This document shows positions 30,182 through 46,716 of a stretch of DNA of 64,000 bases, piece by piece; within the stretch, counting starts at the first letter, position 1, and the number at the start of each line of letters is the position of its first letter. The notes beneath the pieces were generated by a model, which worked only from the letters and a program-made list of their open reading frames with translations, did not search any database and was not told the DNA's origin. Position numbers and translations under genes: made by a program. This DNA comes from Clostridium pasteurianum (GTDB taxonomy: Bacteria > Bacillota > Clostridia > Clostridiales > Clostridiaceae): the NCBI RefSeq assembly GCF_001705235.1, contig NZ_MCGV01000001.1, positions 1,922,001-1,986,000 of the forward strand, given 5' to 3'.

Positions 30182-30269
30182 CAATTATCACCCCCCATTA
30201 ATTTACCATATTTTATAATTGGTCTTTTATTCAATTTTCTAAGTATTATCCATATGGGCGATTTGGTCG

Positions 30270-30853
30270 AACCCATCGCATGCTGACGAGCAAAGCAATG
30301 TCAGCACCCTGCAAACTAATATTATTACCATTACACATTGTTTGCGCCCAAAGTTCCGTAGGCACGGAGGAATTTTTTCCTTGCTTAACCCTCCAAGCCA
30401 AGTAACAGTGATGAAGGAACGATTTAAAAAGAATCCAATAAATCTTGGTAGAAAAATCGTAAAATACTTAGATATTATAATATACAATGTTTTCTTGAAG
30501 ACATCACATGCCGACGAGCGAAGCAATGTCAGCACCCTGCAAACCAACTATTACCACTACACATTGTTTACGGCCAAAATTCCGTAGGCACGGAGGAATT
30601 TTTCCTTGCTTTACCTTCCAAGCGAAGTAACAGTGATAAAGGAACAATTTAAAAGGAATCCAATAAATCTTGGTAGAAAAATCGTAAAATGCTGAGATAT
30701 TATAATACACAATGTTTGCTTGAGAACATCGCATGCCGACGAGCGAAGCAATGTCAGCACCCTGCAAACTAATTATTACAATTACACATTGTTTACGGCC
30801 AAAATTCCGTAGGCACGGAGGAATTTTTTCCTTGCTTTACCTTCCAAGCGAAG
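30270..30853. repeat. Tandem array, unit about 226 bases
   Basis: At least two complete units precede the terminal foldback. The anchor TAACAGT occurs at 30403, 30628 and 30854 (spacings 225 and 226). Units carry gacgagcgaagcaatgtcag, ttccgtaggcacggaggaat and one arm of the foldback. Small open frames in it on both strands are repeat-driven and not genes. Confidence 0.9.
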
Positions 30854-31034
30854 TAACAGTGATGAAGGAACGATTTAAAAGGAATCCAATAAATCTTGGT
30901 AGAAAAATCGTAAAATACTTAGATATTTCAATTTGTCTGAGCTTCTTTTCAGCGAGTTATTGAAATATCTTAGGATTTTACGATTTTTCTGCCTTAGATT
31001 TATGGATTCCTTTTAATGTTCCAAATCACTGTTA
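30854..31034. repeat. Stop-codon-anchored foldback element 1
   Basis: A 181-base imperfect inverted repeat is bounded by TAACAGT and ACTGTTA. The arms are about 80 bases; the apical loop at 30933-30958 contains tgagcttcttttcagcgag. Its right end supplies the TAA stop codon (31032-31034) of leuA. The two other copies in this window have the same orientation relative to their gene. Confidence 0.9.
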
Positions 31035-32708
31035 CTTCGCAGCTGCTCTATTTAGGGCACTTACAAGAGCATTAAGTGATGCCGTATCAATATTATCAGA
31101 TATGCCAACTCCAAAATATCTCTTATCATTATTTTCAACTTGTACATATGCAACTGCTTTTGAATGTGAACCAACATTTAATGCATGTTCATCATAAGAT
31201 ATAAATTTAGCACCGTTATAACCATTGTTGTGCATTGCATTGAAAAACGAATCTATAGGACCATTTCCTATTCCTTCGATTCTCTTGTCTACACCATTTA
31301 CTGCTACAATAGCTTCCATATCAACGGAGTTCTGATCCTGTTCCATATCCTGTATTGAGTGAATCTTATAATTTTTCAAATAATATGGAGCCTTAATCTC
31401 TAAATATTCAGCTTTGAAATATTCAAAAATCTGCTGTGGCGTAAGCTCAGTACCAAGTTCATCAGACTTCTGTTTTATTATCTTACCAAACTCAGGATGC
31501 ATTGATTTAGGAAGTATGAATCCAAAATCACTTTCCATTATATAAGCTGTGCCACCTTTACCTGACTGACTGTTAATACGTATGATTTCTTCATATTCTC
31601 TGCCTAAATCATGTGGATCAATTGCAAGATAAGGAACTTCCCAACGCTCACTCTTACTTTCCTTTAATGCTTTAAGTCCTTTACGTATAGCATCCTGATG
31701 TGAACCAGAAAAAGCAGTAAATACAAGCTTACCGGCATAAGGGTGACGGTCATTTACAGTCATCTTAGTACATTCCTCATAAACTTCAACCACATGATTC
31801 AACTCTGAAAAATCAAGCTCAGGATCTATTCCTTGAGAATACATATTAAGCGCCATATTCATAATATCAAGGTTTCCTGTTCTTTCGCCATTTCCAAAAA
31901 GTGTTCCTTCTACTCTATCTGCCCCTGCAAGAACTCCAAGTTCACTAGCAGCTGTGCAAGTTCCTCTATCATTATGCGTATGAAGACTTAATATTACGCT
32001 TTCTCTATTTTTAAGATGTTTTAAAAACCATTCAATCTGATCTGCATATATATTAGGTGTCGCCATTTCAACAGTTGAAGGAAGATTTATTATTGCTTTA
32101 TTTTCCTTCGTTGGTTTCCAAACATCAAGCACAGCTTCACACACTTCAAGAGCATAGTCAAGTTCAGTTCCCGTAAAACTTTCAGGTGAATATTCAAAAA
32201 TAAATTTACTTTCTTTATATTCAGTATTTTCACTATATTTTTTTACCAATTCGGCACCATAAACTGCTAAATTCTTAACTTCTTCTTTGTCTTTTCTAAA
32301 TACAACTTTTCTCTGAAGTACAGAAGTTGAATTATAAACATGTACGACAGCACTCTTTACTCCTTTTAAAGCCTCAAAGGTCTTTTTCACCAGATGCTCT
32401 CTTGCTTGAGTTAACACCTGAATCGTAACATCATCCGGTATTAGATTGTCCTCTATTAGCTTACGTGTAAATTCATATTCTGTATCTGATGCAGATGGAA
32501 ATCCAATCTCCAATTCTTTAAATCCCATATCTACAAGCATCTTAAACATTTTAATCTTTTCATCTACATTCATAGGTTGTGGAAGAGCTTGATTTCCATC
32601 TCTTAAATCTACGCTGCACCATATTGGTGCCTTTTCTATTTGCTTGTCTGGCCATTCACGATTTTTAATATTTACCTTAGGATATTTGGCATATTTTGTA
32701 TATATCAT
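31032..32708 (-). CDS. leuA: 2-isopropylmalate synthase (long, type 2 LeuA)
   Basis: The enzyme condenses acetyl-CoA with 2-oxoisovalerate, the first committed step to leucine. The N-terminal TIM barrel shows CSVDLRDGNQAL and LHTHNDRGT, and the C-terminal region is the LeuA allosteric dimer domain where leucine binds. At 558 residues it is of the long actinobacterial/yeast type rather than the ~510-residue E. coli type. The start ATG at 32708 follows AAAGGAG; an in-frame GTG at 32717 is too close to it. A Leu T-box leader precedes the gene, and no other leu gene follows. The last codons run into a foldback repeat. Confidence 0.95.
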   Translation of the reverse strand: MIYTKYAKYPKVNIKNREWPDKQIEKAPIWCSVDLRDGNQALPQPMNVDEKIKMFKMLVDMGFKELEIGFPSASDTEYEFTRKLIEDNLIPDDVTIQVLTQAREHLVKKTFEALKGVKSAVVHVYNSTSVLQRKVVFRKDKEEVKNLAVYGAELVKKYSENTEYKESKFIFEYSPESFTGTELDYALEVCEAVLDVWKPTKENKAIINLPSTVEMATPNIYADQIEWFLKHLKNRESVILSLHTHNDRGTCTAASELGVLAGADRVEGTLFGNGERTGNLDIMNMALNMYSQGIDPELDFSELNHVVEVYEECTKMTVNDRHPYAGKLVFTAFSGSHQDAIRKGLKALKESKSERWEVPYLAIDPHDLGREYEEIIRINSQSGKGGTAYIMESDFGFILPKSMHPEFGKIIKQKSDELGTELTPQQIFEYFKAEYLEIKAPYYLKNYKIHSIQDMEQDQNSVDMEAIVAVNGVDKRIEGIGNGPIDSFFNAMHNNGYNGAKFISYDEHALNVGSHSKAVAYVQVENNDKRYFGVGISDNIDTASLNALVSALNRAAAK

Positions 32709-32758
32709 AAAAAACACTCCTTTAAATGTAATTAATTTTCTAATAATTTTTTGTAAAT

Positions 32759-33045
32759 AAAAAACTCGTCTCTAACAATACGAAAGAGACGAGGATTACT
32801 CGCGGTACCACTCTATTTAACTTAACTTAAACTAAAGTTCACTTTTTCAATAGCATTCCACTTAAAGCTGGTTTATACTATCTATCCTTATAACGGTGGA
32901 ATTCCGTTCTACCCTACAAAATAACTTTCAGGTGACTGCTCGCAGACGAGTTCAAAGTCTAAAAACTATCGGTTCACAGCAATCCCGATTCTCTGAAAAT
33001 TTATTCGGCTTCTACTATTTCTGTTCATAGCAACTTTTCTTATTT
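32759..33045 (-). ncRNA. T-box leader, probably leucine-specific
   Basis: The minus-strand RNA ends with the T-box core AGAGTGGTACCGCG (complement at about 32801-32814), followed by a terminator hairpin (32765-32793, CTCGTCTCT with AGAGACGAG, then TTTTTTA). Upstream lies a long stem I with an AGAGAATCGGGA segment and a specifier-loop candidate, GAACTC, giving CTC for leucine. Uncharged tRNA-Leu would favour antitermination and leuA expression. The specifier is inferred from position and the downstream gene. Confidence 0.93.
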
Positions 33046-33163
33046 GATTGTCTATATACTACTATATTATCTCCTAAATGTAAATATAAAGTTGGAAATT
33101 TTATAAATTTGATTATTTTGTCAGTTCCAGTTTAACAATTTACCATTTAGAATATACATTTTT

Positions 33164-35023
33164 TTATTTATCATCATCTTCCGCTGCTAAATGGAATGGA
33201 TAAGTAGCAATTACTATATTATCATATCTCAAAAGTGCTTCCCTAAGCAAAAAGCTAGTATGATTGTGTAAAAATTGTCCTGACTTATCACTAGTTATAA
33301 ATTGAGGCAATACAACTGTTATCTTTTCATCAGGTGCTGCAGCTTTTGATATTATTCCAATATACTCTATAAGTGGAGTAACTATTGCTCTATATGGTGA
33401 ATATTTAGAAACTAAAAGCATATCAGTATCTAATTCATTCCACCTTTTTTTAAGTTTATCCATATATTCCTTATTAGGTGATACATTAAGTGCTATTACA
33501 TCACTAGTTATACTTCTTGCATATTTTAACGCTCCAAGTGTTGCTTTATTTAAACTAGCTATTGGAACTATTATTATATGATTGAAGTTTTCTCCAATAC
33601 CACAGTTTTTAACATACTCTTCATCAGCTTTTAACCCTTTTGCAACATAATTATAGTGCTTCTTAATATGCTGCATAATAAGCACAATGATAGGTATTAG
33701 TATAACTATAACCCATGCTCCTAATGCAAATTTTTCTTTAACTATTACACATGTTGTTACAAGTGTAACGAAAGCTCCAAAACCATTTATAATTTTTCTT
33801 TTAGTTTTTCCATTTTCGTTTGTCTTATCCCAATGAATAACCATACCTGTCTGTGCTAATGTAAATGACAAAAAAACACCTACAGAATACAAAGGTATAA
33901 GAGAATGCACATCAGCTTTAAATATAATAACTAATATACCTGCAATTATGGCTAAAAAAATTATTCCATTTGAAAAACTTAATCTTTTACCCTTTGTAGC
34001 AAAACTTCTAGGGGCATATCCGTCTCTTGCAATTACAGACATAAGCATAGGGAAACCTGTAAATGAAGTATTACATGCCATTATAAGTATGATAGCCGTA
34101 GTAAACTGTATAACATAAAACATAAATGTCTTTCCAGAAAAAACTCCAAATGCAATTTGTGCTAGTACAGTAGCATTATCATTAGGAACAACTCTGCATA
34201 TTCTAGCAAGTATCGATGTTCCTCCAAATATAAGAAGTATAATACATGTAAGTAATACCATTACTTTTGTAGCATTTTTTTGACTTGGCTCTTTAAAATT
34301 AGGAACTGCATTACTTACAGCTTCAAGTCCAGTAAGAGCTGAACATCCAGAAGAGAACGCCTTTAAGATAAGGAATATACTAACATCCCCCATTGGTTTA
34401 AGCGTTTGATTTATCATATGCATGTTTGGTGCTCCATATATATAGTATCTTACTATCCCATAACCTATCATAAATAGCATACTAATAATAAATAAGTACG
34501 TAGGAATACTAAACATTCTAGAAGATTCACCTACACCTCTTAAATTAAGAATAGTTAGGATAGTTATAATAGCTACTGCAAGCAAAACACTGTGCTTAGC
34601 AAGACTTGGAAATGCAGACGTTATTGCTGCGACTCCAGAACTTGCACTAACAGCTACTGTTAAAATGTAATCAAGCAAAAGAGCAGCACCTGCTGTAAGT
34701 CCTGGTAATACACCTATGTTTTCTTTAGCAACTACATATGCTCCTCCACCGTGAGGATAAGCCTTTATAATTTGTACATATGAAACGGTGAGTATAAAAA
34801 GCAGCCCTATAATCATAAGTGAAATATTACCCAACCACTGATATGATAATGCTCCTATAATGGGTACAAGTGCTATTAGAATTTCTTGTGATGCATATGC
34901 AACTGAAGAAATAGCATCACTAGCCATTACCGCAAGCCCAAATGGAACATTATATTTTTCGCTAGAACTTTGCTCATTTGCTAAGGGTCTTCCAATGAGC
35001 ATATCAAAAAATTTATTAACCAA
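33164..35023 (-). CDS. kimA: KimA-like APC-superfamily potassium importer
   Basis: This large membrane protein has about 12 membrane segments in residues 30-450 and a soluble C-terminal domain (about 470-619). It resembles Bacillus KimA/YdaO in the N-terminal IGRPL, in SDAISSVAYASQEIL, in AYPHGGGAYVVAKENIG, and in the C-terminal VVLPQFIT and LHNHTSFLLR segments. KimA takes up potassium and is controlled by c-di-AMP. The frame opens at GTG 35047, but AAGGAGG lies inside it, so TTG at 35023 is the likely start. The short 5' region has no room for the ydaO-type c-di-AMP riboswitch. Annotation as a generic amino-acid permease would be the alternative. Confidence 0.88.
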   Translation of the reverse strand: MVNKFFDMLIGRPLANEQSSSEKYNVPFGLAVMASDAISSVAYASQEILIALVPIIGALSYQWLGNISLMIIGLLFILTVSYVQIIKAYPHGGGAYVVAKENIGVLPGLTAGAALLLDYILTVAVSASSGVAAITSAFPSLAKHSVLLAVAIITILTILNLRGVGESSRMFSIPTYLFIISMLFMIGYGIVRYYIYGAPNMHMINQTLKPMGDVSIFLILKAFSSGCSALTGLEAVSNAVPNFKEPSQKNATKVMVLLTCIILLIFGGTSILARICRVVPNDNATVLAQIAFGVFSGKTFMFYVIQFTTAIILIMACNTSFTGFPMLMSVIARDGYAPRSFATKGKRLSFSNGIIFLAIIAGILVIIFKADVHSLIPLYSVGVFLSFTLAQTGMVIHWDKTNENGKTKRKIINGFGAFVTLVTTCVIVKEKFALGAWVIVILIPIIVLIMQHIKKHYNYVAKGLKADEEYVKNCGIGENFNHIIIVPIASLNKATLGALKYARSITSDVIALNVSPNKEYMDKLKKRWNELDTDMLLVSKYSPYRAIVTPLIEYIGIISKAAAPDEKITVVLPQFITSDKSGQFLHNHTSFLLREALLRYDNIVIATYPFHLAAEDDDK

Positions 35024-35169
35024 TTTTTCAATCCTCCTTAGTATCACTATACTAATAATCTATATTAATATTCAATTTAAGTTATTTTGTCATAAGAATT
35101 ATTATAATATATTTACAAATAATATCAATGTGTAACTGAAAAAACTTTTCGACATTATGTAGTAACTTC

Positions 35170-35589
35170 CTATAACTCGATTTTTTCGAATTTTTTCCAC
35201 ACTTCTGGGTACTTCTTATTTAATCTTATTATCTTAAAACTTTTGCTATCTACAAATACCTGAGCAGTTTTGCCATTAGCCAAAGTTTTTCCATCACAAG
35301 CTCGTATAACCTTGTAATTTAGTTCTACTTTTATGGGACTAAGTTTTTCTAAAGAAGTTTCTATAAGAATATCATCTCCATACCTTGCACCTTCATGATA
35401 CTTGCACTCTGTCTCTACTATAGGCATCATTATACCCATATCTTCCATATCACTATATTTCAAATTAACTGCCTCTATAAAATCTTCTCTAGCAGCTTCA
35501 AAATATACATAATAATTTGCATGATGTACTATTCCCATTTTATCTGTTTCAGCATATCTAACTCTGATTTTCGTAACACTTTTATTCAT
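35170..35589 (-). CDS. YbgC/4HBT-family acyl-CoA thioesterase
   Basis: This 139-residue single hotdog-fold domain has the family motif RYAETDKMGIVHHANYYVYFE (catalytic Asp16 in this motif). It hydrolyses acyl-CoA thioesters of unknown chain type. The start ATG follows AGAAAGGAAATAATAATT. It sits upstream of the KimA-like gene on the same strand with a 120-base gap, so co-transcription is possible. There are no tol-pal genes, as expected in a Firmicute. Confidence 0.92.
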   Translation of the reverse strand: MNKSVTKIRVRYAETDKMGIVHHANYYVYFEAAREDFIEAVNLKYSDMEDMGIMMPIVETECKYHEGARYGDDILIETSLEKLSPIKVELNYKVIRACDGKTLANGKTAQVFVDSKSFKIIRLNKKYPEVWKKFEKIEL

Positions 35590-35947
35590 AATTATTATTT
35601 CCTTTCTATGTAAATACTAAAACAAGTACCACAATATGTATCTTTCACATTATTATATCACAATTATGTAGAAAGTTATTATGCATAAAAACTATTATAT
35701 ATAAACTAAAAATATTTTTAGTTTATGTACACATATATTTTTTATGCGTTTTATATTTTATGTACAACTATATAAATAACACAAACTAGTAATAACTTAT
35801 AGCATCAAAAAAAATTTATAAATTGAAGTCAAAAAAAGCCACAAAGCTTCAATATATTCCACCAATTTACTAAATATTCAAAGGCAAATTAAGCTAGTAT
35901 CTATATCATTTGTAATACATTGTTAATTATGCTATCATAAGCATAAG
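35590..35947. other. Divergent intergenic region with a perfect palindrome
   Basis: This AT-rich gap lies between divergent genes. A 26-base perfect palindrome at 35701-35726 (centre aaaaatattttt) is its most striking feature. The ribosome site AAGGTGGTGG at the right end serves the rightward gene. Confidence 0.6.
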
Positions 35948-35959
35948 GTGGTGGTAATA

Positions 35960-36697
35960 ATGGCTAATATTATACCCAATGACCAATTAAAAAAAATAAA
36001 TTTTTACTGGCAAAATATATTTGATTTCAAACCAAATGATAAAGATACTGAATCTTTAGTTGTTCCTAAAACTTCCTTTAAGAATTCAAGTAAAATATCA
36101 ATATACCATATAAACGATAAATCTTTTGTTGAAACAGATGAAAATATATTTGGGAAGATAGCTGATTTTGTAAATAGCTACTACTCATACAAACCTGTGT
36201 ATTTAAAAGACTTCCAAAATTATTTTACAACTTCCATAGAAAAAGAAAACAGCTATTATTTTTCTTATCTTGCTAAATGCAAAGATGTTTCAGACATTTT
36301 AGGTAGTAACTATTACATAAGAAATCTTACAAATAGCGATACTAAATTGTTAGAAAATTTTAAAAAATCATATTTTCGTTCAGAACTGAAAGAAAATCTT
36401 CCTAATATAGATTTACCAATAACTTTAGGTTGCTTTTACAATAAAGAATTAATTTCAGCTGCAAGTCTATTCTATTTCAAAAATGATATAGCTGACATAA
36501 AACTTATAACTCATCCTGCTTTTAAAGATGATATTATAATCTCTAAAGCCATGATAATTGATTTAGGCAGAGTCTGCTTCAAAAAAAATAAAATATTACA
36601 ATATAGATTTTCCGAAGATAATGACTTTTCAAGAAAAATAGCAAAATCAATGGGCTTCAGCTTGCATGTACTTAAAGAAAATTTTAAGTTCAAATAA
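35960..36697 (+). CDS. Putative GNAT-fold acetyltransferase
   Basis: I do not recognise the N-terminal half of this 245-residue protein. The C-terminal half (about 110-240) looks GNAT-like: YYIRNLTNSDTKLLENF, then LGCFYNKELISAASLFYF, and an ending with FSRKIAKSMGF similar to the last helix and strand of the fold. The frame opens at GTG 35948, but ATG at 35960 lies five bases after the GGTGGTGG site. Its TAA stop codon is the first three bases of a foldback repeat. Function and substrate are unknown. Confidence 0.65.
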   Translation: MANIIPNDQLKKINFYWQNIFDFKPNDKDTESLVVPKTSFKNSSKISIYHINDKSFVETDENIFGKIADFVNSYYSYKPVYLKDFQNYFTTSIEKENSYYFSYLAKCKDVSDILGSNYYIRNLTNSDTKLLENFKKSYFRSELKENLPNIDLPITLGCFYNKELISAASLFYFKNDIADIKLITHPAFKDDIIISKAMIIDLGRVCFKKNKILQYRFSEDNDFSRKIAKSMGFSLHVLKENFKFK

Positions 36698-36868
36698 CAG
36701 TATTTTGAAACATTAAATAAAAATCATAAGTCTAAGCCACAAATTATAAAAATGCTAAGAAATTTTAATAACTCACTATCGTTCAAACAAATTAAAATTT
36801 CTAAGTATCTTTATAATTTGCGGCAAGACTTATTGAATTTTATTTAAACCGTTCCCAAAATACTGTTA
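36695..36868. repeat. Stop-codon-anchored foldback element 2
   Basis: A 174-base imperfect inverted repeat is bounded by TAACAGT and ACTGTTA. The first TAA is the stop codon of the upstream plus-strand gene. Loop sides AATAACTC and CAAACAAATT match the other copies, but the central loop is diverged. It is the single-copy form, without a tandem array. Confidence 0.88.
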
Positions 36869-37039
36869 TTTAACTTAAAGTCAAAACAATGATACCTTTT
36901 CTTCGTTTCACTACGAAAAGCTTTTAACTTTAAATTTTCGGGAGCGTCAGAGAAAAAAATCGTTTATCCCTTTGCCGCAAGCAAAACACTAGCTTCAACT
37001 TATATAAACTTATCCCTGTAAATATTCATTGCTGCAATT
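36869..37039. repeat. Repeat-derived spacer next to foldback 2
   Basis: This stretch contains a second small foldback (ttaaagtcaaaa near 36874 with ttttaactttaa near 36922). It also contains a segment at about 36934-36982 resembling the tttcggtagcggagcgga...aaaatcc module seen in the array at 44553-45140. There is no gene. Confidence 0.5.
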
Positions 37040-38689
37040 CTAGCTTTCATAGCTGGCAATTTTCTTTTCTCCGCTTTTACATACGAATTTGTACAATAAG
37101 TAATCCAATATTGTAAATACTAATACGCATAGGATAAAGAATATATTATAATTTATCTTTACAAATATACACATAATTATCACAATAACACTAGGTATGA
37201 TTGAAATCAAAAAATCTATAAACGAATTTACATTTGATTTAACTGCTCTCTGCTCATTGTCCCATTCCAACTTAGGTGTATTGATATCTATATACATTCC
37301 TATAATTGATGCAAATATTATTCCAAGCATTCCTGCTATTATCATATATAGAAGTATATATATAGGAAACTTAAATGCAAATAGCGCAACTATATCTACA
37401 AGAACTATAGAAATACCTCCAACCAATATTCCACAAAGCAATTTTGCTGTTATTTGCTTTGCATATGATATAGGTAAATATTTCATTACAAAAAAATTGC
37501 TTCCTTCTCTTGAAATTGCCGTAGATGTAACAGCATTTACAGCACCCATTAAAAGTCCAAATACGATAGCCGCAGTTATTAAAATTCTAAAACTTTCTGT
37601 ACCATTCATATATTTCATAAGCTCACTTATACCTGTTCTTTGTCTCTTATTAACCATAGCTGGAACCACAATAACTATTGGAAATATAAAACTGGACATT
37701 ACACAATTCACAAAATATGCTGGTGTTCTAAATAAAATTTTAATTTCCTTCATTGTGTATGCAAACAAAACAGATTTTCTTTGAACTTCCTTTTCCATCT
37801 TCTTCTTATCTATTTTCTTCCTTGTAGAAGATGATTCTGAAAGTCCTTGAACTCCTTTAAAATACAAAAGCTTTCCAAGATACATTATAACTATGAAACT
37901 TACTACATTTATTAGAATAAATATACCAAGGTACACTAAATCAGTTCCTACCAAGGCCTTACTGGCTATATTACCAAGAGGGAAAAAATCTTTCATTACA
38001 GAATTTGCCTTCGTCACACTACTAAGCATCTGCTTACTATTTGAAGAGCTCATACTATTCGTAATAACATTTATACTTAATCCAAAAGCTACTGCTAAAA
38101 TACCACCTAAAGTTTTAAAAAGATCCTTTTTCTTAGACCTGTTTACAAACGGCATAATAAATATACTTATTAACAAAGCCACTGCTAAAGGCAGTATTGG
38201 CTCAAATATTATAAGGATAATACTAAATATATAAAAAGGAACTCCCATCCCAGATCCTATTCCATATATTAATGTACATGGAACTAAAACTATAGCTGTA
38301 ATAAAGTATTCATATATAAGTGATACTGTAAATTTACTTGCAACGATTGTTTCCGGTTTTAACGGCATTGGAATGAGAAAATTTATATCATTTGAATAAT
38401 AAAATGTTCCCATAGTATAAAATATTCCAAAGAAAAAGATTATAAAAGTAATTACTGCATAATTCATTTGAAGCATTAAATACTCTGCATGAAACATCTT
38501 AAGTCCAAAATAAAAAGGTGCATCTATTAAGGCTACTAGTCCTGCAAACATGACAAATAAAAAGATTCTAAGGATAACTGCCGCCACTGCATTTGCTGTA
38601 AATATACTTTTCTTTTTACTTCTGCTTTTATATCCTCCGCCCATAAGAAGATATTTAGTTAAAATCCAAAACTTATTTGTTCTCATCAT
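37040..38689 (-). CDS. ABC-2 type exporter permease
   Basis: This 549-residue integral membrane protein has about 12-14 hydrophobic segments and a charged cytoplasmic loop (STRKKIDKKKMEKEVQRK, about 285-302). It forms a two-component exporter with the ATPase whose gene overlaps it by 17 bases counted from this start. The chosen ATG 38689 has GGAG inside the end of the ATPase gene. Lack of extracellular domains argues against FtsX-type systems. The exported substrate is unknown; export of peptides or drugs is typical of such pairs. Confidence 0.85.
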   Translation of the reverse strand: MMRTNKFWILTKYLLMGGGYKSRSKKKSIFTANAVAAVILRIFLFVMFAGLVALIDAPFYFGLKMFHAEYLMLQMNYAVITFIIFFFGIFYTMGTFYYSNDINFLIPMPLKPETIVASKFTVSLIYEYFITAIVLVPCTLIYGIGSGMGVPFYIFSIILIIFEPILPLAVALLISIFIMPFVNRSKKKDLFKTLGGILAVAFGLSINVITNSMSSSNSKQMLSSVTKANSVMKDFFPLGNIASKALVGTDLVYLGIFILINVVSFIVIMYLGKLLYFKGVQGLSESSSTRKKIDKKKMEKEVQRKSVLFAYTMKEIKILFRTPAYFVNCVMSSFIFPIVIVVPAMVNKRQRTGISELMKYMNGTESFRILITAAIVFGLLMGAVNAVTSTAISREGSNFFVMKYLPISYAKQITAKLLCGILVGGISIVLVDIVALFAFKFPIYILLYMIIAGMLGIIFASIIGMYIDINTPKLEWDNEQRAVKSNVNSFIDFLISIIPSVIVIIMCIFVKINYNIFFILCVLVFTILDYLLYKFVCKSGEKKIASYES

Positions 38690-39407
38690 CAACCAACTCC
38701 AAAAACATTTTTTCCAGTGAACTACCTTCTTCCTGAAGTTTTTGTTTCATCTCTTGTATAGTTCCACAAAATATAAGTTTCCCTTTACTAACTATTCCAA
38801 TTCTATCGCATAACTTTTCAGCAACTTCCAACACATGAGTTGAAAAAAATACTGTTTTCCCACTGTCGGCATGCCTTCTCATCATTTCCTTCAAATTATA
38901 CGAAGCTTTAGGATCAAGACCTGTCATAGGTTCATCTAGAATCCAAACATCTGGATCATGTACTAGAGCTCCCATTACAACCATCTTCTGTCTCATTCCA
39001 TGAGAATAGCTTTGTATTTTATCGTTTAAAGCACTTTCCATATCAAAATATTTACTTAAACTATTGATTCTTTCTTTTCTAATATCAGTCGGTACATCAT
39101 ATATGTCTGACATAAAATTCAAATATTCAATACCCTTAAGTCTTAAAAACATATCAGGACTGTCAGGAACATATCCAATTTTTTTCTTAACCTCAATTGG
39201 CTTCTCGTTAATATCTAGTCCATCTACTTTTATAGCACCAGAATCACTTTTTATAATACCCGTAATCATCTTTATTGTGGTACTCTTTCCTGCACCATTA
39301 GGTCCTAAAAATCCGAATATTTCTCCTGAATTTATAGTAAAGTTTAAATTATCAACGGCTTTATTTTTACCATTATAACTTTTATTTACATTCATCAATT
39401 CAATCAC
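38673..39407 (-). CDS. ABC exporter ATPase
   Basis: This 244-residue nucleotide-binding protein has Walker A LGPNGAGKST, signature SYSHGMRQKM, Walker B VWILDEPMTGLD and the switch His in STHV. It belongs to the CcmA/NatA-like group that pairs with ABC-2 permeases. The frame opens at 39464, but GTG at 39407 follows GGAGGTG at five bases, and the preceding codons do not look like protein. It energises the permease encoded by the overlapping gene. Confidence 0.92.
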   Translation of the reverse strand: MIELMNVNKSYNGKNKAVDNLNFTINSGEIFGFLGPNGAGKSTTIKMITGIIKSDSGAIKVDGLDINEKPIEVKKKIGYVPDSPDMFLRLKGIEYLNFMSDIYDVPTDIRKERINSLSKYFDMESALNDKIQSYSHGMRQKMVVMGALVHDPDVWILDEPMTGLDPKASYNLKEMMRRHADSGKTVFFSTHVLEVAEKLCDRIGIVSKGKLIFCGTIQEMKQKLQEEGSSLEKMFLELVDDENK

Positions 39408-39584
39408 AGTAACACCTCCACCATTTGTTATATACATGATATAACATACGTAATTAAATTTCAATATAATATTTTATATAATTAAGAGTGTAATCGAACT
39501 CATTTAAATTTATCTGTTTCTTTATGAGTTATATTTTAAATAGGCGCGGGCTTTTACATACACTGTAAAAATGTAAATAAAAAA

Positions 39585-39622
39585 TTCAAGATTTAAACCT
39601 TTATTTAGATTTAAATCTTGAA
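39585..39622 (-). terminator. Terminator of lactate dehydrogenase
   Basis: A 13-bp perfect stem (TTCAAGATTTAAA with its complement) is followed on the minus strand by TTTTTTATTT. Confidence 0.88.
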
Positions 39623-39641
39623 TCATTATTACATATTTATA

Positions 39642-40583
39642 TTAATTTATATTTTTCAAAGAATCTTTTAGCGTTTTTGAAGAATCATTCAATCTTTTCT
39701 TTTCATCTTCACTCAGTGGAACCTCTATAATTTGCTTTACTCCATCAATTCCAACAACTGATGGAACTCCCATATATACATCATTTATTCCATATTGGCC
39801 TTGAAGTAAAGTTGATACTGTCAAAATTGAATTTTCATCTCTTAATATTGCTTCTACGATTCTTTTCACTGCTAATGCGACTGCATAATAAGTTGCTCCT
39901 TTTCTTTTTATAATTTCATATGCGGCATTTTTTACATCTTCATATAACTTATATTTAAGTGAACCATCGCATTTTTTGCAGGACACTCTGCAATATTCAT
40001 TTACGTCCATTCCTGCTATATTAGTTAAACTCCAAGTAGCTATTTCAGAGTCACCATGCTCTCCCATAATGTACGTGTGAATATTTCTTACATCAATGTC
40101 AAAATGCTCACTTAGCATATATCTAAATCTAGATGTATCGAGCACTGTTCCAGAACCTATTACTCTTTCCTTAGGAAAACCTGAAAGTTTATACGTTATA
40201 TATGTCAAAACGTCAACGGGATTTGAAACTACAAGTAAAATAGCATTTGGATTATACCTTACCACTTCAGGAATTATTGATTTGAATATATTATAATTTT
40301 TATTAATTAAATCTAGCCTCGTTTCTCCTGGTTTTTGTGCTGCACCCGCAGTTATTATAACTATATCTGAATCTTTAGTATCCGCATATTCCCCTGCTCT
40401 AACATCTACAGGTTTTACAAAAGCTTTTCCATGGGATAAATCCATAGCCTCCCCTTCTGCTTTATCTTTATTTACATCCACTATAACTATTTCAGATGCA
40501 AGTCCACCATTCATTAAAGCAAAAACTGTAGAAGAACCAACAAATCCTGCTCCAATCACTGAAATCTTAGTATTCTTATTCAT
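39642..40583 (-). CDS. ldh: L-lactate dehydrogenase
   Basis: The enzyme reduces pyruvate to L-lactate with NADH. The 313-residue protein shows the NAD fold [10 protein letters not shown] (9-18), the substrate-closing Arg in GETRLD (Arg89) and the catalytic GEHGDSE (His176). The family's lactate rather than malate specificity fits QKPGETR (Gln at 83). The start ATG follows TTTGGAGGG. It is a single-gene unit. Upstream, 40663-40680 (ttgtaacacttataacct) distantly resembles a clostridial Rex redox operator, but the match is poor. Confidence 0.95.
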
Positions 40584-40823
40584 AATTGACCCTCCAAACT
40601 AACATATAGAAAACAGTTCATCTATTAAATTATTCACACAAAAAGCTTTTGACATTAGCATTTTGTAACACTTATAACCTAAGTTTCTCACTAGTTTTCT
40701 TTTAATAGTATTATTTAAACAAATGTTTTTTATTCACTGCTAATAATTTATATATTTGTGGATTTATTATCTATTAATATAATATACTAATTAATATTAA
40801 TTATCAAGTAAATTATTTATATA

Positions 40824-40852
40824 AAAAAATCTGCATTCTCTGCAGATTTTTT
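40824..40852. terminator. Bidirectional-type terminator after the GntR/ABC operon
   Basis: A perfect 12-bp stem (AAAAAATCTGCA with its complement) and a 5-base loop, with T run on either strand. It ends the leftward GntR/ABC operon upstream of ldh. Confidence 0.88.
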
Positions 40853-40870
40853 AAATCATATTAAGTTAGC

Positions 40871-41575
40871 CTAAAAATCTTTAAATACTTCTCTGTATAA
40901 TTCATCTATTGAAGTCCCTTTTTCGTTTCTCAAATCTTCTGCATTCCCACTCAAAATATTTTTGCCTTCGGATATAAATACTACATCATCAAATAATCTT
41001 TCTATATCATTTACTAAATGAGTAGTTATAACCATAGAACTTTCTTCCGAAAAATTATTTACTATAGTATCAAGTATCTTTTCTCTTGTAGTAGGATCTA
41101 CCCCTCCAAGAGGCTCATCAAGCATATAAATCTTAGCTTTTCTAGATAAAACTAAAGTTAGCTGAAGTTTTTCAAGCATACCTTTAGAAAGAGAAGTAAC
41201 TTTGCTATCTTTATCTAAACGCATGAAATCTAAAAGCTCTACTGCTTTATTAAAATCGAAATCAGCATAAAAGTCTTTAAAAAATTCTAAAGCATCCTTT
41301 ATCCTCATCCACTTATATAAATAATTCACATCTGGTAAATAGGAAACTATAGATCTTGTATAAACTGATGGCTTCTGGTTATCTATTAAAATTTCTCCTG
41401 AACTCTTTTTTAGAATTCCTGCTACTATTTTTATAAATGTACTTTTTCCACTACCATTTGGGCCTAATAATCCTAATATACGGCCCTTTTTAACTTCTAC
41501 ATTGAAATCATCAAGTGCCTTCTTTTTTAAATAACTTTTACTTAAATTTGTAGCCTTTAATAAACAATCTTCCAT
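40871..41575 (-). CDS. ABC transporter ATPase (YtrB/YhcG-like)
   Basis: This 234-residue ABC ATPase has Walker A LLGPNGSGKST, signature SLSKGMLEKLQLT and Walker B KIYMLDEPLGGVD. It is the last gene of a three-gene unit permease-GntR-ATPase and starts one base after the regulator stop, with GGAGG at good spacing. The arrangement resembles Bacillus ytr and yhc operons, which respond to cell-envelope antibiotics. The permease partner is the protein encoded at 41992-42744. Confidence 0.9.
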   Translation of the reverse strand: MEDCLLKATNLSKSYLKKKALDDFNVEVKKGRILGLLGPNGSGKSTFIKIVAGILKKSSGEILIDNQKPSVYTRSIVSYLPDVNYLYKWMRIKDALEFFKDFYADFDFNKAVELLDFMRLDKDSKVTSLSKGMLEKLQLTLVLSRKAKIYMLDEPLGGVDPTTREKILDTIVNNFSEESSMVITTHLVNDIERLFDDVVFISEGKNILSGNAEDLRNEKGTSIDELYREVFKDF

Positions 41576-41576
41576 T

Positions 41577-41942
41577 TTACTTTTCCTCCTTATTAAGCCT
41601 ATTTTTTACTACATTTATTATTTCATCATCCTTAAATCCAAACTTTTTTATATTTTGAATAAAATTTTCAATGAGCTCACTTGCCATCTCTTTTTTTAAA
41701 TTATTAATCATATCAGCATCCTCCATAATAAAACTTCCTGTACCTCTTTGTGTATAAGTTATATTTTCTCTTTCAAGTTCTTGATACACTCTTTGAAGTG
41801 TATTAGGATTAACCTTAAATTTAACCGCCATATCTCTTATAGATGGCAGTTTATCTCCAGGCTTTAAGCTTCCATTTATTATATCGATTTTTATGGCATT
41901 CATTATCTGTATATAAATAGGTATCTTATTATCAAATTTCAT
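41577..41942 (-). CDS. GntR-family transcriptional repressor (YtrA subfamily)
   Basis: This 121-residue protein has an N-terminal winged HTH (PIYIQIMNAIKIDIINGS, then PSIRDMAVKFKVNPNTLQRV) and only a short helical tail, which is the YtrA-type layout. Such regulators repress a linked ABC operon until an envelope stress or antibiotic relieves them. The start ATG follows GAGGAAG. A perfect palindrome containing AGTGTACTAT and its mirror image covers the promoter upstream of the first gene of this unit, and is the obvious operator. Confidence 0.93.
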   Translation of the reverse strand: MKFDNKIPIYIQIMNAIKIDIINGSLKPGDKLPSIRDMAVKFKVNPNTLQRVYQELERENITYTQRGTGSFIMEDADMINNLKKEMASELIENFIQNIKKFGFKDDEIINVVKNRLNKEEK

Positions 41943-41991
41943 ATTACCAACTTCCTCTAATTAAATTTTAAATAATATTTATTTCATATTC

Positions 41992-42744
41992 TTATAAGTC
42001 CATTTTTTCATCAAGTATTTTCACCGAAATAACAAATAATATAATGGCCAAAATAAATTCAAGTATTGTACTTACAACAAAAATTGATGGTCCTCCCGCA
42101 TGCACAGTAACTTTAACCGATGACACCGTGAATGCTTTTAACACATTATTAAACACAATTTGCTGCGGAAATAATTTATCAATAACTTTGCAAATTTCAA
42201 ACCATATCCAATTAAATGCTACAAATACTCCAAGTGACAGAATCCCTGAAAACCTACCATTTTTAGTTATCATTCTAGCTAACAAAATACTAAAATAAAT
42301 TATTATTAATGTTCCAATATATTCCATGAGTCCAAATATCGTATAAAATATAACTCTTGAATCAAAAATTTGTGAGAAACTGATCTTAGCGCCTAAAGTA
42401 TATGCAAAATTCAGTAGAAAGCATCCACCTACTATAAGGCTCAATATCATCATAACCAAAGAACATATAAGTTTTTCACCTATTATTGAATACCCACTCT
42501 TAGGGACAGTAAAAATAAGATACTTAGTATCCCTCTTTAAATCTCTCACAAAAATTCGTATACTCATAATAAAAGTAGCTACACAAATAGATGTGAGTAT
42601 AAGCACAGAAAGTGCAATTATCGCACCATTTTCCCACACATTCACTCTCGTCATAAGTCCTATATTAAGAGCTATTGATATAAGCATAACCAATAAGAAC
42701 TCTCTATATATTGTTTTAAATTCATACTTTATAAGCTTTAACAT
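41992..42744 (-). CDS. ABC transporter permease of the GntR-linked system
   Basis: This 250-residue protein has six predicted membrane segments and begins MLKLIKYEFKTIYREFLLVM, typical of single-unit ABC-2 permeases. The frame opens at 42768, but ATG at 42744 lies downstream of GGAGG. It is the first gene of the operon, immediately below the palindrome-covered promoter. The substrate is unknown; in related systems the role is antibiotic response. Confidence 0.82.
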   Translation of the reverse strand: MLKLIKYEFKTIYREFLLVMLISIALNIGLMTRVNVWENGAIIALSVLILTSICVATFIMSIRIFVRDLKRDTKYLIFTVPKSGYSIIGEKLICSLVMMILSLIVGGCFLLNFAYTLGAKISFSQIFDSRVIFYTIFGLMEYIGTLIIIYFSILLARMITKNGRFSGILSLGVFVAFNWIWFEICKVIDKLFPQQIVFNNVLKAFTVSSVKVTVHAGGPSIFVVSTILEFILAIILFVISVKILDEKMDL

Positions 42745-42770
42745 ATTAACACAACCTCCAAAGTTCAATT

Positions 42771-42827
42771 ATTTAATCAGTTTTAGTGTACTATGATTAT
42801 AGTACACTAAAACTGATTAAATGTCAA
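42771..42827 (-). promoter_or_regulatory. Promoter within a 52-base perfect palindrome (GntR operator)
   Basis: Positions 42771-42822 form a perfect inverted repeat, 24-base arms around GATT. On the minus strand TTGACA (42822-42827), a 17-base spacer and TACTAT (42799-42804) give a promoter whose spacer and -10 lie inside the palindrome. The core AGTGTACTAT...ATAGTACACT fits YtrA-type operators. Binding of the GntR protein would block transcription. Confidence 0.88.
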
Positions 42828-42828
42828 T

Positions 42829-43584
42829 TATATAATATCTGTAAAGAACTTAACACAAAGCAAGTACCAAAATCGCAATCTTCAAGCGATTTTGGTACTT
42901 GCTTTGTGTTTTTAGTTCTTTTAGATATTATAAATATCCCACATATTGCCTCTATATTTCTTCTCAGCCTCAATTCAAATCGCAATCTTCAAGCGATTTT
43001 GGTACTTGCTTTGTGTTTTTAGTTCTTTTAGATATTATAAATATCCCACATATTGCCTCTATATTTCTTCTCAGCCTCAATTCAAATCGCAATCTTCAAG
43101 CGATTTTGGTACTTGCTTTGTGTTTTTAGTTCTTTTAGATATTATAAATATCCCACATATTGCCTCCATATTTCTTCTCAGCCTCAATTCAAATCGCAAT
43201 CTTCAAGCGATTTTGGTACTTGCCTTGTGTTTTTAGTTCTTTTAGATATTATAAATATCCCACATATTGCCTCTATATTTCTTCTCAGCCTCAATTCAAA
43301 TCGCAATCTTCAAGCGATTTTGGTACTTGCTTTATGTTTTTAGTTCTTTTAGATATTATAAATATCCCACATATTGCCTCTATATTTCTTCTCAGCCTCA
43401 AATCAAAATCGCAATCTTCAAGCGATTTTGGTACTTGCTTTGTGTTTTAGTTCTTTTAGATATTATAAATATCCCACATACTGCCCCTATATTTTTTCTC
43501 AGCCTCAATTCAAATCGCAATCTTCAAACAATTTTGGTACTTGTTTTATGTTTTAGTTCTTTTAGATATTATAAATATCCTAAT
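42829..43584. repeat. 107-base tandem array with a foldback at its left edge
   Basis: Seven copies of the core aatcgcaatcttcaagcgat start at 42871, 42978, 43085, 43192, 43299, 43407 and 43513 (the last one mutated). The left edge, about 42829-42870, is the complement of the unit segment that follows the core, giving a foldback with a ~50-base arm. Units are contiguous with no variable spacers. The array fills the gap between the GntR-operator promoter and the HAD gene. All open frames in it are repeat-driven. Confidence 0.93.
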
Positions 43585-43593
43585 TTTATTGAA

Positions 43594-44337
43594 TTATAAT
43601 ACAAACTCACAGTCACATTCCAAGCATTTAGGTGAAAGCTTATATATCATGTCTTTTCTTTCTATAACTATTTTCATTCTGCTTTTAATTTCATCATAAT
43701 TTAATACTTCTTTAACAAGCTCACGCGTTGGATTGATACATACTGGATTTCCCACCATTTTGAGCATTCCTAAATCACCTGATGTATCACCATAAGCATA
43801 GCTTTCGTCTAAGTCTATATCATATTTATTTTTCATTTCAATTACTGCACTTTCTTTACTTTCACTATCCCACATAGGTACAACTTCACCAGTATAAATT
43901 CCATCATTATTCATTAAATATTCCGCACCCTTATAATCATCAAATCCATACTTCTCTGCCATTTTTCTCACAAGCTCAAGAGGGCTTCCTGAAATTGTTA
44001 TTATCTTATGTCCCTGTTCCTTATGCCACTTTATCCTATCGCGGGTATAAGTATATACTCTTTCACCTTTTTGACTAACTACCTGTCTTGCAATAAACTC
44101 CACCTGGGATTTGTGAAGCCCCTTAAGCGCATCTACATATATGTCCGCCATTTTTAAAAGGTAATTATCATAATCGCCTTGTCTGTTATCCCATTTTGTA
44201 AATTCCGGTCTTACTTCCTTATACCATTTTTCTGCATCAATAATTTCATATTTTATAAGTTTTTTAAAAATCTCTGAAATTAAACCCTCTCTATATAAAG
44301 TACCATCTATATCAAAAAAAGCTGCTTTACATTTCAT
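43594..44337 (-). CDS. HAD-superfamily phosphatase (subclass IB, SerB-like)
   Basis: This 247-residue protein has the nucleophile motif FFDIDGT (Asp9, Asp11), the motif-II ITISGSP, a motif-III Lys in SKESAV, and the acidic motif YGDTSGD. The all-helical cap after residue 20 fits HAD subclass IB. It hydrolyses a small phosphoester; phosphoserine is possible, but specificity is not certain. The start ATG follows GGAGGG. It is flanked by the 107-base array on its 3' side. Confidence 0.9.
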   Translation of the reverse strand: MKCKAAFFDIDGTLYREGLISEIFKKLIKYEIIDAEKWYKEVRPEFTKWDNRQGDYDNYLLKMADIYVDALKGLHKSQVEFIARQVVSQKGERVYTYTRDRIKWHKEQGHKIITISGSPLELVRKMAEKYGFDDYKGAEYLMNNDGIYTGEVVPMWDSESKESAVIEMKNKYDIDLDESYAYGDTSGDLGMLKMVGNPVCINPTRELVKEVLNYDEIKSRMKIVIERKDMIYKLSPKCLECDCEFVL

Positions 44338-44552
44338 CTCTTTCCCTCCATTCTATAATTTCCTGTTCTAATAATATTTTTCCTTCTATTATAATTTTAT
44401 TATCTTCAACTTTCAACTTTTTTATATATCTTAAAATATTAAAAAACAGTGAACCAAATTATAAGTGCTATCTTAGCATTTATTAAACTTTATTATTTCA
44501 TTATATTATCCTTGAACATTTAGTGTTCTTTATTTAAATGATATTTTTCATA
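44338..44552. other. Gap upstream of the HAD gene
   Basis: AT-rich sequence without a gene. I see no clear promoter or structured element beyond the ribosome site at the left end. Confidence 0.4.
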
Positions 44553-45144
44553 GAGAATCGGAGAAAAATCCACCTTGCCTTTAATCTAATCGAATTAATA
44601 GTCTTTTCATTATTAAAAGCTTACCTCCATATAAGCCTTTAATTCGGATTTTCGGTAGCGGAGCGGAAGAAAATCCTCCTTGCCCTTACCATCCATGTGA
44701 AGTAACAGTATTTTGGAAACTATTTAAATAAAACTCAATAAGACTTTGCCTAAAATTATAAAAATCCTTAGAAGTTTCAATTTATCTGAGCTTCTTTTCA
44801 GCGAGTTATTAAAATTTCTTAGTATTTTCATTATTAAAATCTTACCTCCATATAGGCTTTTAATTCGGATTTTCGGTAGCGGAGCGGAAGAAAATCCTCC
44901 TTGCCTTTACCTTTCATGTGAAGTAACAGTATTTTGGAAACTATTTAAATAAAACTCAATAAGACTTTGCTCCAAATAATGAAAAGACTTAGTAATTTTA
45001 ATTTGTCTGAGCTTCTTTTCAGCGAGTTATTAAAATTTCTTAGTATTTTCATTATTAAAATCTTACCTCCATATAGGCTTTTAATTCGGATTTTCGGTAG
45101 CGGAGCGGAAGAAAATCTTCCTTGCCCTTACTTTTCATGTGCAG
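44553..45144. repeat. Tandem array, unit 221 bases
   Basis: The anchor TAACAGT occurs at 44703, 44924 and 45145, and aattcggat at 44641, 44862 and 45083, all exactly 221 apart. Each unit carries ttttcggtagcggagcggaa, one foldback arm and the loop tgagcttcttttcagcgag. A degenerate partial unit begins near 44553. Open frames inside it are not genes. Confidence 0.92.
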
Positions 45145-45324
45145 TAACAGTATTTGGGAAACAATTTAAATAAAGCTCAATAAGACTTTGCTCAAAATAA
45201 TGAAAAGACTTAGAAATTTTAATTTGTCTGAGCTTCTTTTCAGCGAGTTATTAAAATTTCTTAGTATTTTCATTATTTTGAGCTTAGTCTTATGAGCTTT
45301 ATTTAATGTTTCAAAATACTGTTA
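45145..45324. repeat. Stop-codon-anchored foldback element 3
   Basis: A 180-base imperfect inverted repeat is bounded by TAACAGT and ACTGTTA, with the same loop as element 1. Its right end supplies the TAA stop (45322-45324) of the amino-acid permease gene. It terminates the 221-base array. Confidence 0.92.
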
Positions 45325-46716
45325 CTTCACAGCATTGCGCATAGTGCTATGCTTATATCCATAAACAATATATACTACTATTCCAACTAAAAACCAGATT
45401 ACAAATCTCATCTTTGTGAAATACGTAAGATTCATTATTAAATAAAAGCAAATGATTGCAGAAATTATTGGAATTACTGGTACAAGCGGACACTTAAAGC
45501 CCCTATCAATATCCGGTTTTCTCTTTCTCAAAACTATAATTCCTATAGAAACTATTATAAATGCTGCAAGCGTACCTATATTGGTAAGCTCAGAAACAAC
45601 TGTTATTGGCAAAAATCCAGATAAAGATGCTGCTGCTATTACAACTATTACGGTACTTGTAACAGGCGTTTTGGTCTTTTGATTCACAGCACCTAAAAAC
45701 TTAGGGAAAAGTCCATCTCTTGACATCGCGAAAAATATTCTAGTTTGTCCAAACATTATAACAAGCAAAACTGAAGTCAATCCAAAAAGTGCTCCTACTG
45801 ATATCATTGCTGAACCCCAATTATAACCTATTTGTTGAAGTGCAAATGCTACTGGTGCAGATGTATATTTAAACTTATAATATGGAACTATCCCTGTAAG
45901 CAGTGCAGCGACAATTATATAAAGTACAGTACATATAAGAAGTGAACCCACAATTCCTTTTGGTAAATCATGTTTAGGGTCTTTAACTTCCTCTGCCGCA
46001 GTAGAAACCGCATCAAATCCTATATATGCGAAAAATACATAAGCTGCTCCCTTAAACACGCCTTTCCATCCATATGGCATAAAAGGATGCCAATTAGCAG
46101 TCTTTACATGTCCCACAGCTAAAACTATAAATAAAGCAATAACTGCAAGTTTTATCATTACTATAATATTATTGAATTTTGCAACTTCAGTTACACCCCT
46201 TATGAGAAGTGCCCCTATGATTAAAATAATAATTACAGCTGGTAAATTTACTATACCGCCTTCTGCTGGTGAATTTAAAAATTGCTTAGGTATATTAATT
46301 CCTATTTGTTTAAGCATATCTGCTGCATATCCTGACCATCCAATTGCAACGGTACCAATAAAAACAGTATACTCAAGTATCAAATCCCAACCTATAATCC
46401 ATGCCCATACCTCACCAAGTGATGCATAACCATATGTATATGCACTTCCAGCTACTGGTACAATCGATGCAAATTCTGCATAACACAAAGCGGCAAAAGC
46501 ACACGCAATACCAGAAATTATAAATGAAATAACTAGTGCAGGTCCTGAATATCTACCTGCTGCTAATCCTGTTATTACAAAGATTCCAGCACCAACAATT
46601 GCCCCAATTCCAAGTAAAGTTAGTTCTTTTGCTCCAAGAGCCTTTTTTAGGGAATTTTTCCCCTTAGTTTCGTCAATTAACTCCTTAATTGATTTAGTCT
46701 TAAAAATGTCATTCAT
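45322..46716 (-). CDS. APC-superfamily amino-acid permease (CAT/YhdG-like)
   Basis: This 464-residue transporter has 12 membrane segments. The first contains the substrate-binding GIGAIVGAGIFVITG pattern, and YAEFASIVPVAGSAYTY follows. It resembles cationic or branched-chain amino-acid permeases of the CAT group; the exact substrate is not evident. The start ATG follows GGGGG. It is transcribed alone, and its stop codon lies in foldback element 3. Confidence 0.92.
   Translation of the reverse strand: MNDIFKTKSIKELIDETKGKNSLKKALGAKELTLLGIGAIVGAGIFVITGLAAGRYSGPALVISFIISGIACAFAALCYAEFASIVPVAGSAYTYGYASLGEVWAWIIGWDLILEYTVFIGTVAIGWSGYAADMLKQIGINIPKQFLNSPAEGGIVNLPAVIIILIIGALLIRGVTEVAKFNNIIVMIKLAVIALFIVLAVGHVKTANWHPFMPYGWKGVFKGAAYVFFAYIGFDAVSTAAEEVKDPKHDLPKGIVGSLLICTVLYIIVAALLTGIVPYYKFKYTSAPVAFALQQIGYNWGSAMISVGALFGLTSVLLVIMFGQTRIFFAMSRDGLFPKFLGAVNQKTKTPVTSTVIVVIAAASLSGFLPITVVSELTNIGTLAAFIIVSIGIIVLRKRKPDIDRGFKCPLVPVIPIISAIICFYLIMNLTYFTKMRFVIWFLVGIVVYIVYGYKHSTMRNAVK

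Follow-up and report, generated by a model that had tools for sequence, protein, structure and literature searches.

Three large palindromes in a stretch of Clostridium pasteurianum DNA raise the question of how inverted repeats come to lie directly behind three genes, with their outer TAA serving as the stop codon of each. The stretch, referred to below as the window, comprises 64,000 nt of contig NZ_MCGV01000001.1; positions are those of the window, and the genome to which it belongs is called the host. The answer favoured here, with moderate confidence, is that the palindromes are copies of a non-autonomous mobile DNA element, which lands at gene ends and replaces the intrinsic terminator just behind the stop codon. 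The mobile origin is the better supported reading, because the copies are many, none was found in G003 (the fourth genome of the genus to be compared), they stand mostly behind different genes in different congeners, they show turnover, and the genes concerned have remained collinear. A preliminary description of this DNA had considered a mobile element targeting stop codons; of this, mobility is favoured, and the target is better described as the terminator behind the stop codon.

On re-reading the sequence, the three inverted repeats were confirmed at 30854-31034, 36695-36868 and 45145-45324, with the ends TAACAGT/ACTGTTA, and in all three the TAA on the gene side forms the stop codon of the neighbouring gene, as had been described. 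Copy 1 adjoins the LeuA gene (31032-32717, minus strand), copy 2 a gene of 249 aa (35948-36697, plus strand) and copy 3 an amino-acid permease gene (45322-46716, minus strand). The label "GNAT-like", given earlier to the 249-aa gene, was not confirmed, no Pfam family being found for it at E 0.001. The three copies had also been said to share one orientation relative to their genes, and the direction of the loop, identical in all of them, agrees with this. The terminal sequences are present, but they do not mark the boundary that had been placed there: the inverted repeat continues 7-9 nt outwards and reaches the last codons of the gene. Tc1/mariner-like ends with a TA duplication were dropped for this reason, pairing and variability both extending across those 7-9 nt beyond the TAA.

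The predicted RNA folding energies of copies 1, 2 and 3 are -96.0, -65.5 and -89.3 kcal/mol, and copy 3 folded as DNA gives -63 against a mean of -15.2 for shuffled sequences (z -16.4; none of 200 shuffles as good). Beyond the far arm there is a short spacer, followed by a small second hairpin, the tail, which among the copies where it was found mostly lies 65-70 nt from the end of the covariance model presented below. Copy 1 and copy 3 are each the full member of a tandem array, whose partial copies lie on the far side at a spacing of 221-226. A small coding frame inside the element was considered and dropped: a 35-aa frame exists in some copies, its start codon is absent in many, and its changes follow the pairing. 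The elements of the window and their parts are as follows.

30321..30706, minus strand: two partial copies (30321-30481 and 30546-30706) in tandem with copy 1; repeat family D3
30801..30831, minus strand: tail hairpin of copy 1 (host coordinates 1952801-1952831)
30847..31041, minus strand: copy 1, the palindrome following leuA, counted with its outer 7 nt at either end (TAA at 31032-31034; 161.5 bits)
36688..36875, plus strand: copy 2, the palindrome following the 249-aa gene, counted with its outer 7 nt (TAA at 36695-36697; 128.8 bits)
36896..36920, plus strand: tail hairpin of copy 2 (read by eye)
44717..45095, minus strand: two partial copies in tandem with copy 3, with tails at 44647-44675 and 44868-44896 (92.8 and 72.6 bits); repeat family D2
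45089..45117, minus strand: tail hairpin of copy 3 (host coordinates 1967089-1967117)
45138..45331, minus strand: copy 3, the palindrome following the amino-acid permease gene, counted with its outer 7 nt (TAA at 45322-45324; 168.3 bits)

A search of the host and other clostridia with a covariance model, as the preliminary description had proposed, revealed a high-copy family. BLAST with copy 3 finds at least ~40 full copies in the host genome. The covariance model, built from 31 copies of three species, gives at least 150 matches in the host, at least 150 in G001 and 123 in G002 among the best 150 candidates scored per genome, partial copies being included and a palindrome possibly counting on both strands. 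In G003 there is no match among the best 150 candidates, and in 400 kb of that genome nothing reaches E 0.1. An unselected 400 kb of the host holds 23 full copies, which extrapolates to some 270 per genome. These 23 derive from 60 matches found on both strands at E 0.1 or better; manual removal of reverse-strand doubles and of short or weak partial matches left 26 on their best strand, from which three partial or tandem copies were subtracted. Two truncated copies remain among the 23.

In the Clostridiaceae, at least 24 of 194 genomes match at E 1e-6 (according to the tool, 11 of 46 genera) when the best 15 candidates per genome are scored under stricter filters. At E 0.001, where both strands may count, there are 90 matches in G158, 84 in G011, 56 in G138 and 14 in G036, which belongs to another family. 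In the other genera the core is embedded in longer palindromes, mostly of 224-330 nt; in G158, G164 and G167, palindromes often occur as facing pairs that make up a single unit of ~500 nt, present at many places (matches to L286 1955-2452). The plasmids and phages searched gave no match to the element, and neither did an exact-pattern search of named genomes, whose scope may leave near relatives outside. The model was run on 10 of 80 LeuA loci from named species, with no match at E 0.01; in the genus, no copy lies behind this gene in G003 and G001. The leuA of G002 (L053) is followed by a partial copy (59.8 bits, model positions 35-120), in which the TAA is replaced by GAA and the reading frame seems, by eye, to continue into the element.

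The placement of the elements was tabulated for 163 distinct copies from three species, at loci picked by score except those of the 400 kb, after removal of overlapping matches and identical sequences; the G000 loci L019, L022, L026 and L030 are left out of this set, and only 13 of the 20 loci of the 400 kb had matches. A frame of at least 50 codons ends between -60 and +25 in 125 copies and is absent from this interval in 38, and 112 copies lie within 20 nt of a stop codon. The stop codon is the TAA of the element itself in 34 copies, and it stands 1-17 nt ahead of this TAA in 68. The exact class thus makes up about one fifth of the copies and the three of the window happen to fall in it; the claim that the elements begin exactly at stop codons holds for these three, but not for the family. 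With frames of at least 100 codons, 102 of the 163 copies are in the observed sense relative to the gene and three are mirrored. Of 36 palindromes matched in other genera, 27 start at most 51 nt from a same-strand stop codon (frames of at least 60 codons).

The intrinsic terminators of these genes were sought with a strict detector, whose yield at suitable gene ends is only 24-37%. Among 18 genes followed by an element, none has a terminator within 120 nt of the stop codon and two have one within 400 nt, while in a single case a terminator was detected that starts inside the element. For comparison, a terminator within 120 nt follows 33 of 139 other host gene ends whose next gene is distant; in the element-free G003 the figure is 56 of 152 gene ends, a median distance of 17 nt separating the stop codon from the start of the hairpin. 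In 14 orthologous pairs (orthologues of less than 45% identity or short of the C-terminus were excluded), a terminator lies just behind the stop codon in eight of the 14 G003 genes, and within 120 nt in none of the 14 host genes. For those eight G003 terminators, no host counterpart was detected within 400 nt, and two were detected further on; of the other genes, 49 have a terminator in G003, and for 19 of these one can be detected in the host as well. The presence of the element in the host and of a terminator in the G003 orthologue are modestly associated (Fisher P 0.02). The G003 orthologues end normally, many of them with a hairpin and a T run. In one gene, the end reads ...AATATT TAA in G003 and ...AATATT GCG AAG CAA TAG in the host, so that here the element supplies the stop codon.

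The genes themselves did not move, since 14 host genes are found in strictly reversed order in G003, a genome in which the non-coding DNA is far diverged. In the readable G001 orthologues of eight element genes, the element is absent from the 200 nt inspected in all eight (by eye). In three closely related genomes, G158, G164 and G167, one gene end is followed by a full element, by the outer hairpin only (~80 nt) or by a single element whose core is flipped; G158 and G164 have a copy in common behind another gene, where G167 carries a different one together with alterations in the last three codons (both cases by eye). This is evidence of turnover, without indicating which way each change went.

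Several results weigh against the replacement of terminators by a mobile element. When the search was extended to the next gene, the first 120 nt being taken up by the element, four of the 18 element genes proved to have a terminator beyond the element. Moreover, six of the 14 G003 orthologues have no terminator according to a detector with a yield of 24-37%, and the absence from all 14 host genes within 120 nt is partly forced, as an inserted palindrome pushes other terminators away. Copies at the same site in two congeners occur in four orthologous pairs of the sample, and some of these sites may be old or reused. The core-less hairpin of ~80 nt in G164 could be the product of a deletion rather than an empty site, and leftover target stems were not seen outside the arms, where the match rate is near chance from 8-10 nt outwards. 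Finally, no mobilising gene was found: the genes directly upstream of 125 sampled copies include no recurring transposase, and PF01797 (Y1) has no match in G001, with its at least 150 element matches, and four in the element-free G003.

Among the alternatives, the best placed is a hairpin of the 3' untranslated region that serves the host, as terminator or as mRNA stabiliser (a role suggested for REP), and that is selected as RNA and spread by recombination. The placement directly behind stop codons, the fixed orientation and the lack of another terminator at most element genes would all agree with it, and so would the co-variation of the arms. The compensatory changes already noticed between the window copies were borne out: in the 31 copies, 28 of 55 pairs are changed on both sides and 96.7% of cells pair, which none of 500 shuffles equals, and when the partner is slid by one column pairing falls to 52-55%. 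This RNA structure, which the preliminary description had also entertained, is nevertheless rather unlikely, because wobble pairs have no advantage over A-C mismatches. Across three data sets, G-T cells are no commoner than A-C cells (100 vs 78 in the host, 64 vs 83 in G001 and G002, which makes 164 vs 161 in total, and 28 vs 31 in other genera), the alignments for the host, G001 and G002 being fitted to the model and so leaning towards pairing. In the tRNAs of the same DNA, in contrast, 17 G-U stand against 0 A-C, in a small control of 243 pairs from 14 tRNAs found, some lost by the parser, with a tRNA finder that itself admits G-U. Furthermore, no T run follows the large hairpin in the copies inspected, so that it does not have the make-up of an intrinsic terminator, and G003 has no copies and uses ordinary terminators. 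Since G-T is no commoner than A-C, the pairing of the arms looks kept at the level of DNA and not as RNA, through recognition of a folded strand, arm-to-arm copying, or both. The same count of G-T and A-C cells is a simple test of DNA-level versus RNA-level conservation of hairpins, and can be used for other repeat families.

It is quite improbable that the elements insert at random and that harmful copies are lost, leaving the survivors behind genes. Gene ends are tolerant places, and three of the 23 copies in the 400 kb do lie far from any same-strand stop codon; but 18 of the 23 start within 20 nt of one, against 7.6% for random intergenic places and strands (P 1.8e-16, treating copies as independent and taking the longest open frames, not the annotation, as genes). 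The preference for stop codons, for which a tabulation of distances had been proposed, therefore holds. Exact coincidence with the stop codon, in six of 23 copies against 0.3% by chance, and the orientation of 102 to 3 likewise speak against chance insertion.

Template switching, that is, copying from arm to arm, is scarcely likely to maintain the palindrome alone, with the folded form unselected. It would be in keeping with the lack of preference for wobble pairs and with the outer end of the arms, where non-consensus letters are matched opposite in ~60-100% at most positions, far above the chance level of 4-35% in most; a few positions drop to 35-54%, and one inner position in G002 to 12%. 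This test kept 78, 46 and 22 copies after exclusion of those in poor register, and the matching stops 7-9 nt outside the TAA. However, the small bulges, the A-A mismatches in the CTAAG boxes and the directional loop are constant across genera (by eye), and copying would erase them. Arm-to-arm copying may act in addition. As for an integron-like attC site, carried with each gene as a cassette, the likeness lies in a large hairpin, imperfect and with extrahelical bases, that immediately follows the gene and takes its orientation from it, but this idea is largely refuted and deserves almost no credit, given that 14 of 14 host genes are collinear with the element-free G003, that the ends lack attC core boxes (compared with the consensus by eye), and that convergent genes can each carry their own copy, the copies facing each other and not forming cassette arrays (by eye).

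For the favoured mobile palindrome that replaces terminators, the following course of events can be envisaged. An enzyme acting in trans might recognise the folded single strand or a cruciform, by means of constant marks such as the CTAAG boxes with their A-A mismatches, the small bulges and the loop AACTCG...CTCARACAA. Insertion would take place at a terminator hairpin, whose direction would decide which way the element faces. The element's TAA would then often become the new stop codon, and the gene would lose its terminator, and sometimes its last codons, and keep its protein. Slippage and repeated insertion could account for partial copies in tandem and for the nesting of outer hairpins. 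A bolder proposal, which can be advanced only tentatively, is that a new clostridial transposition system, working on a folded single DNA strand, swaps terminators for its own oriented hairpin, and that the 3' ends of very many genes, including the stop codon, have been rewritten by one family. Should the favoured reading be right, a mobile element would have taken over gene ends in clostridia repeatedly and directionally; the targeting of folded terminators could be tested directly, and the annotation of gene ends in such genomes would change.

Some known systems invite comparison. EFAR of Enterococcus faecalis is ~170 bp long and palindromic, with two adjacent stem-loops and a modular length, and its original paper reportedly described insertion into stem-loops with the loss of most of the target hairpin. 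Likened by this description, the clostridial palindrome looks closest in kind to EFAR; the genus differs, and the stop-codon register, the fixed orientation and the DNA-level pairing are what was found for the clostridial palindromes. The earlier remark that no described family fits is upheld as far as Rfam 15 is concerned, no family scoring above its gathering cut-off (21 weaker matches fall in five loci and are nearly all to microRNA hairpins), but EFAR seems to work alike. No description of the palindrome family was found in the literature searched, which covered few subscription papers. EFAR is probably identical with Efa-1, for which PMC2267715 gives 163 bp, 65 copies and a pair of adjacent stem-loops, and in PMC3733652 EFAR is listed among the miniature inverted-repeat transposable elements (MITEs).

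The clostridial palindromes agree with MITEs in being short, non-coding, dispersed and multi-copy, with the whole element forming an inverted repeat. Like NEMIS, RUP, ERIC and Bcr1, MITEs of 70-300 bp without coding capacity that lie next to genes and fold into hairpins (PMC3733652), they are short gene-adjacent hairpins; they differ in that no partner insertion sequence was found directly upstream of the 125 sampled copies and that the arms pair over almost their whole length. With REP/RAYT they share dispersed intergenic palindromes and hairpins with mismatches. REPs, in contrast, measure 20-40 bp (PMC3733652) and the clostridial palindromes ~180 nt and more, and Y1 genes do not track the element; membership of REP/RAYT was rejected on the grounds of size and of the PF01797 distribution given above for G001 and G003. 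Clot-1 of C. tetani is a clostridial intergenic stem-loop family too, of 74 bp and 19 copies (PMC2267715); it is likened here by description alone, and the consulted part of that source makes no mention of stop codons.

Other repeats were observed in the vicinity of these elements. On the minus strand, the stop codon (43594) of a HAD-family hydrolase gene is immediately followed by a tandem array of 107-nt units (family D1, 42763-43621), whose part at 42821-42940 matches the palindrome model weakly (37.8 bits). A small hairpin motif, GCTGACA...GTCAGC, recurs beside element tails (window 30262-30773, host 1803089-1869553), with 10 pattern matches in the 400 kb of the host, two of which are one place on both strands. 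In four of the eight G001 orthologues mentioned above (host L103-L118), another short repeat stands behind the stop codon, GTACAGAGTACAAAGTACAGTGAAGG-like in three and CACAATGCACAATG-like in one (by eye), as if several repeat families used the same place behind the stop.

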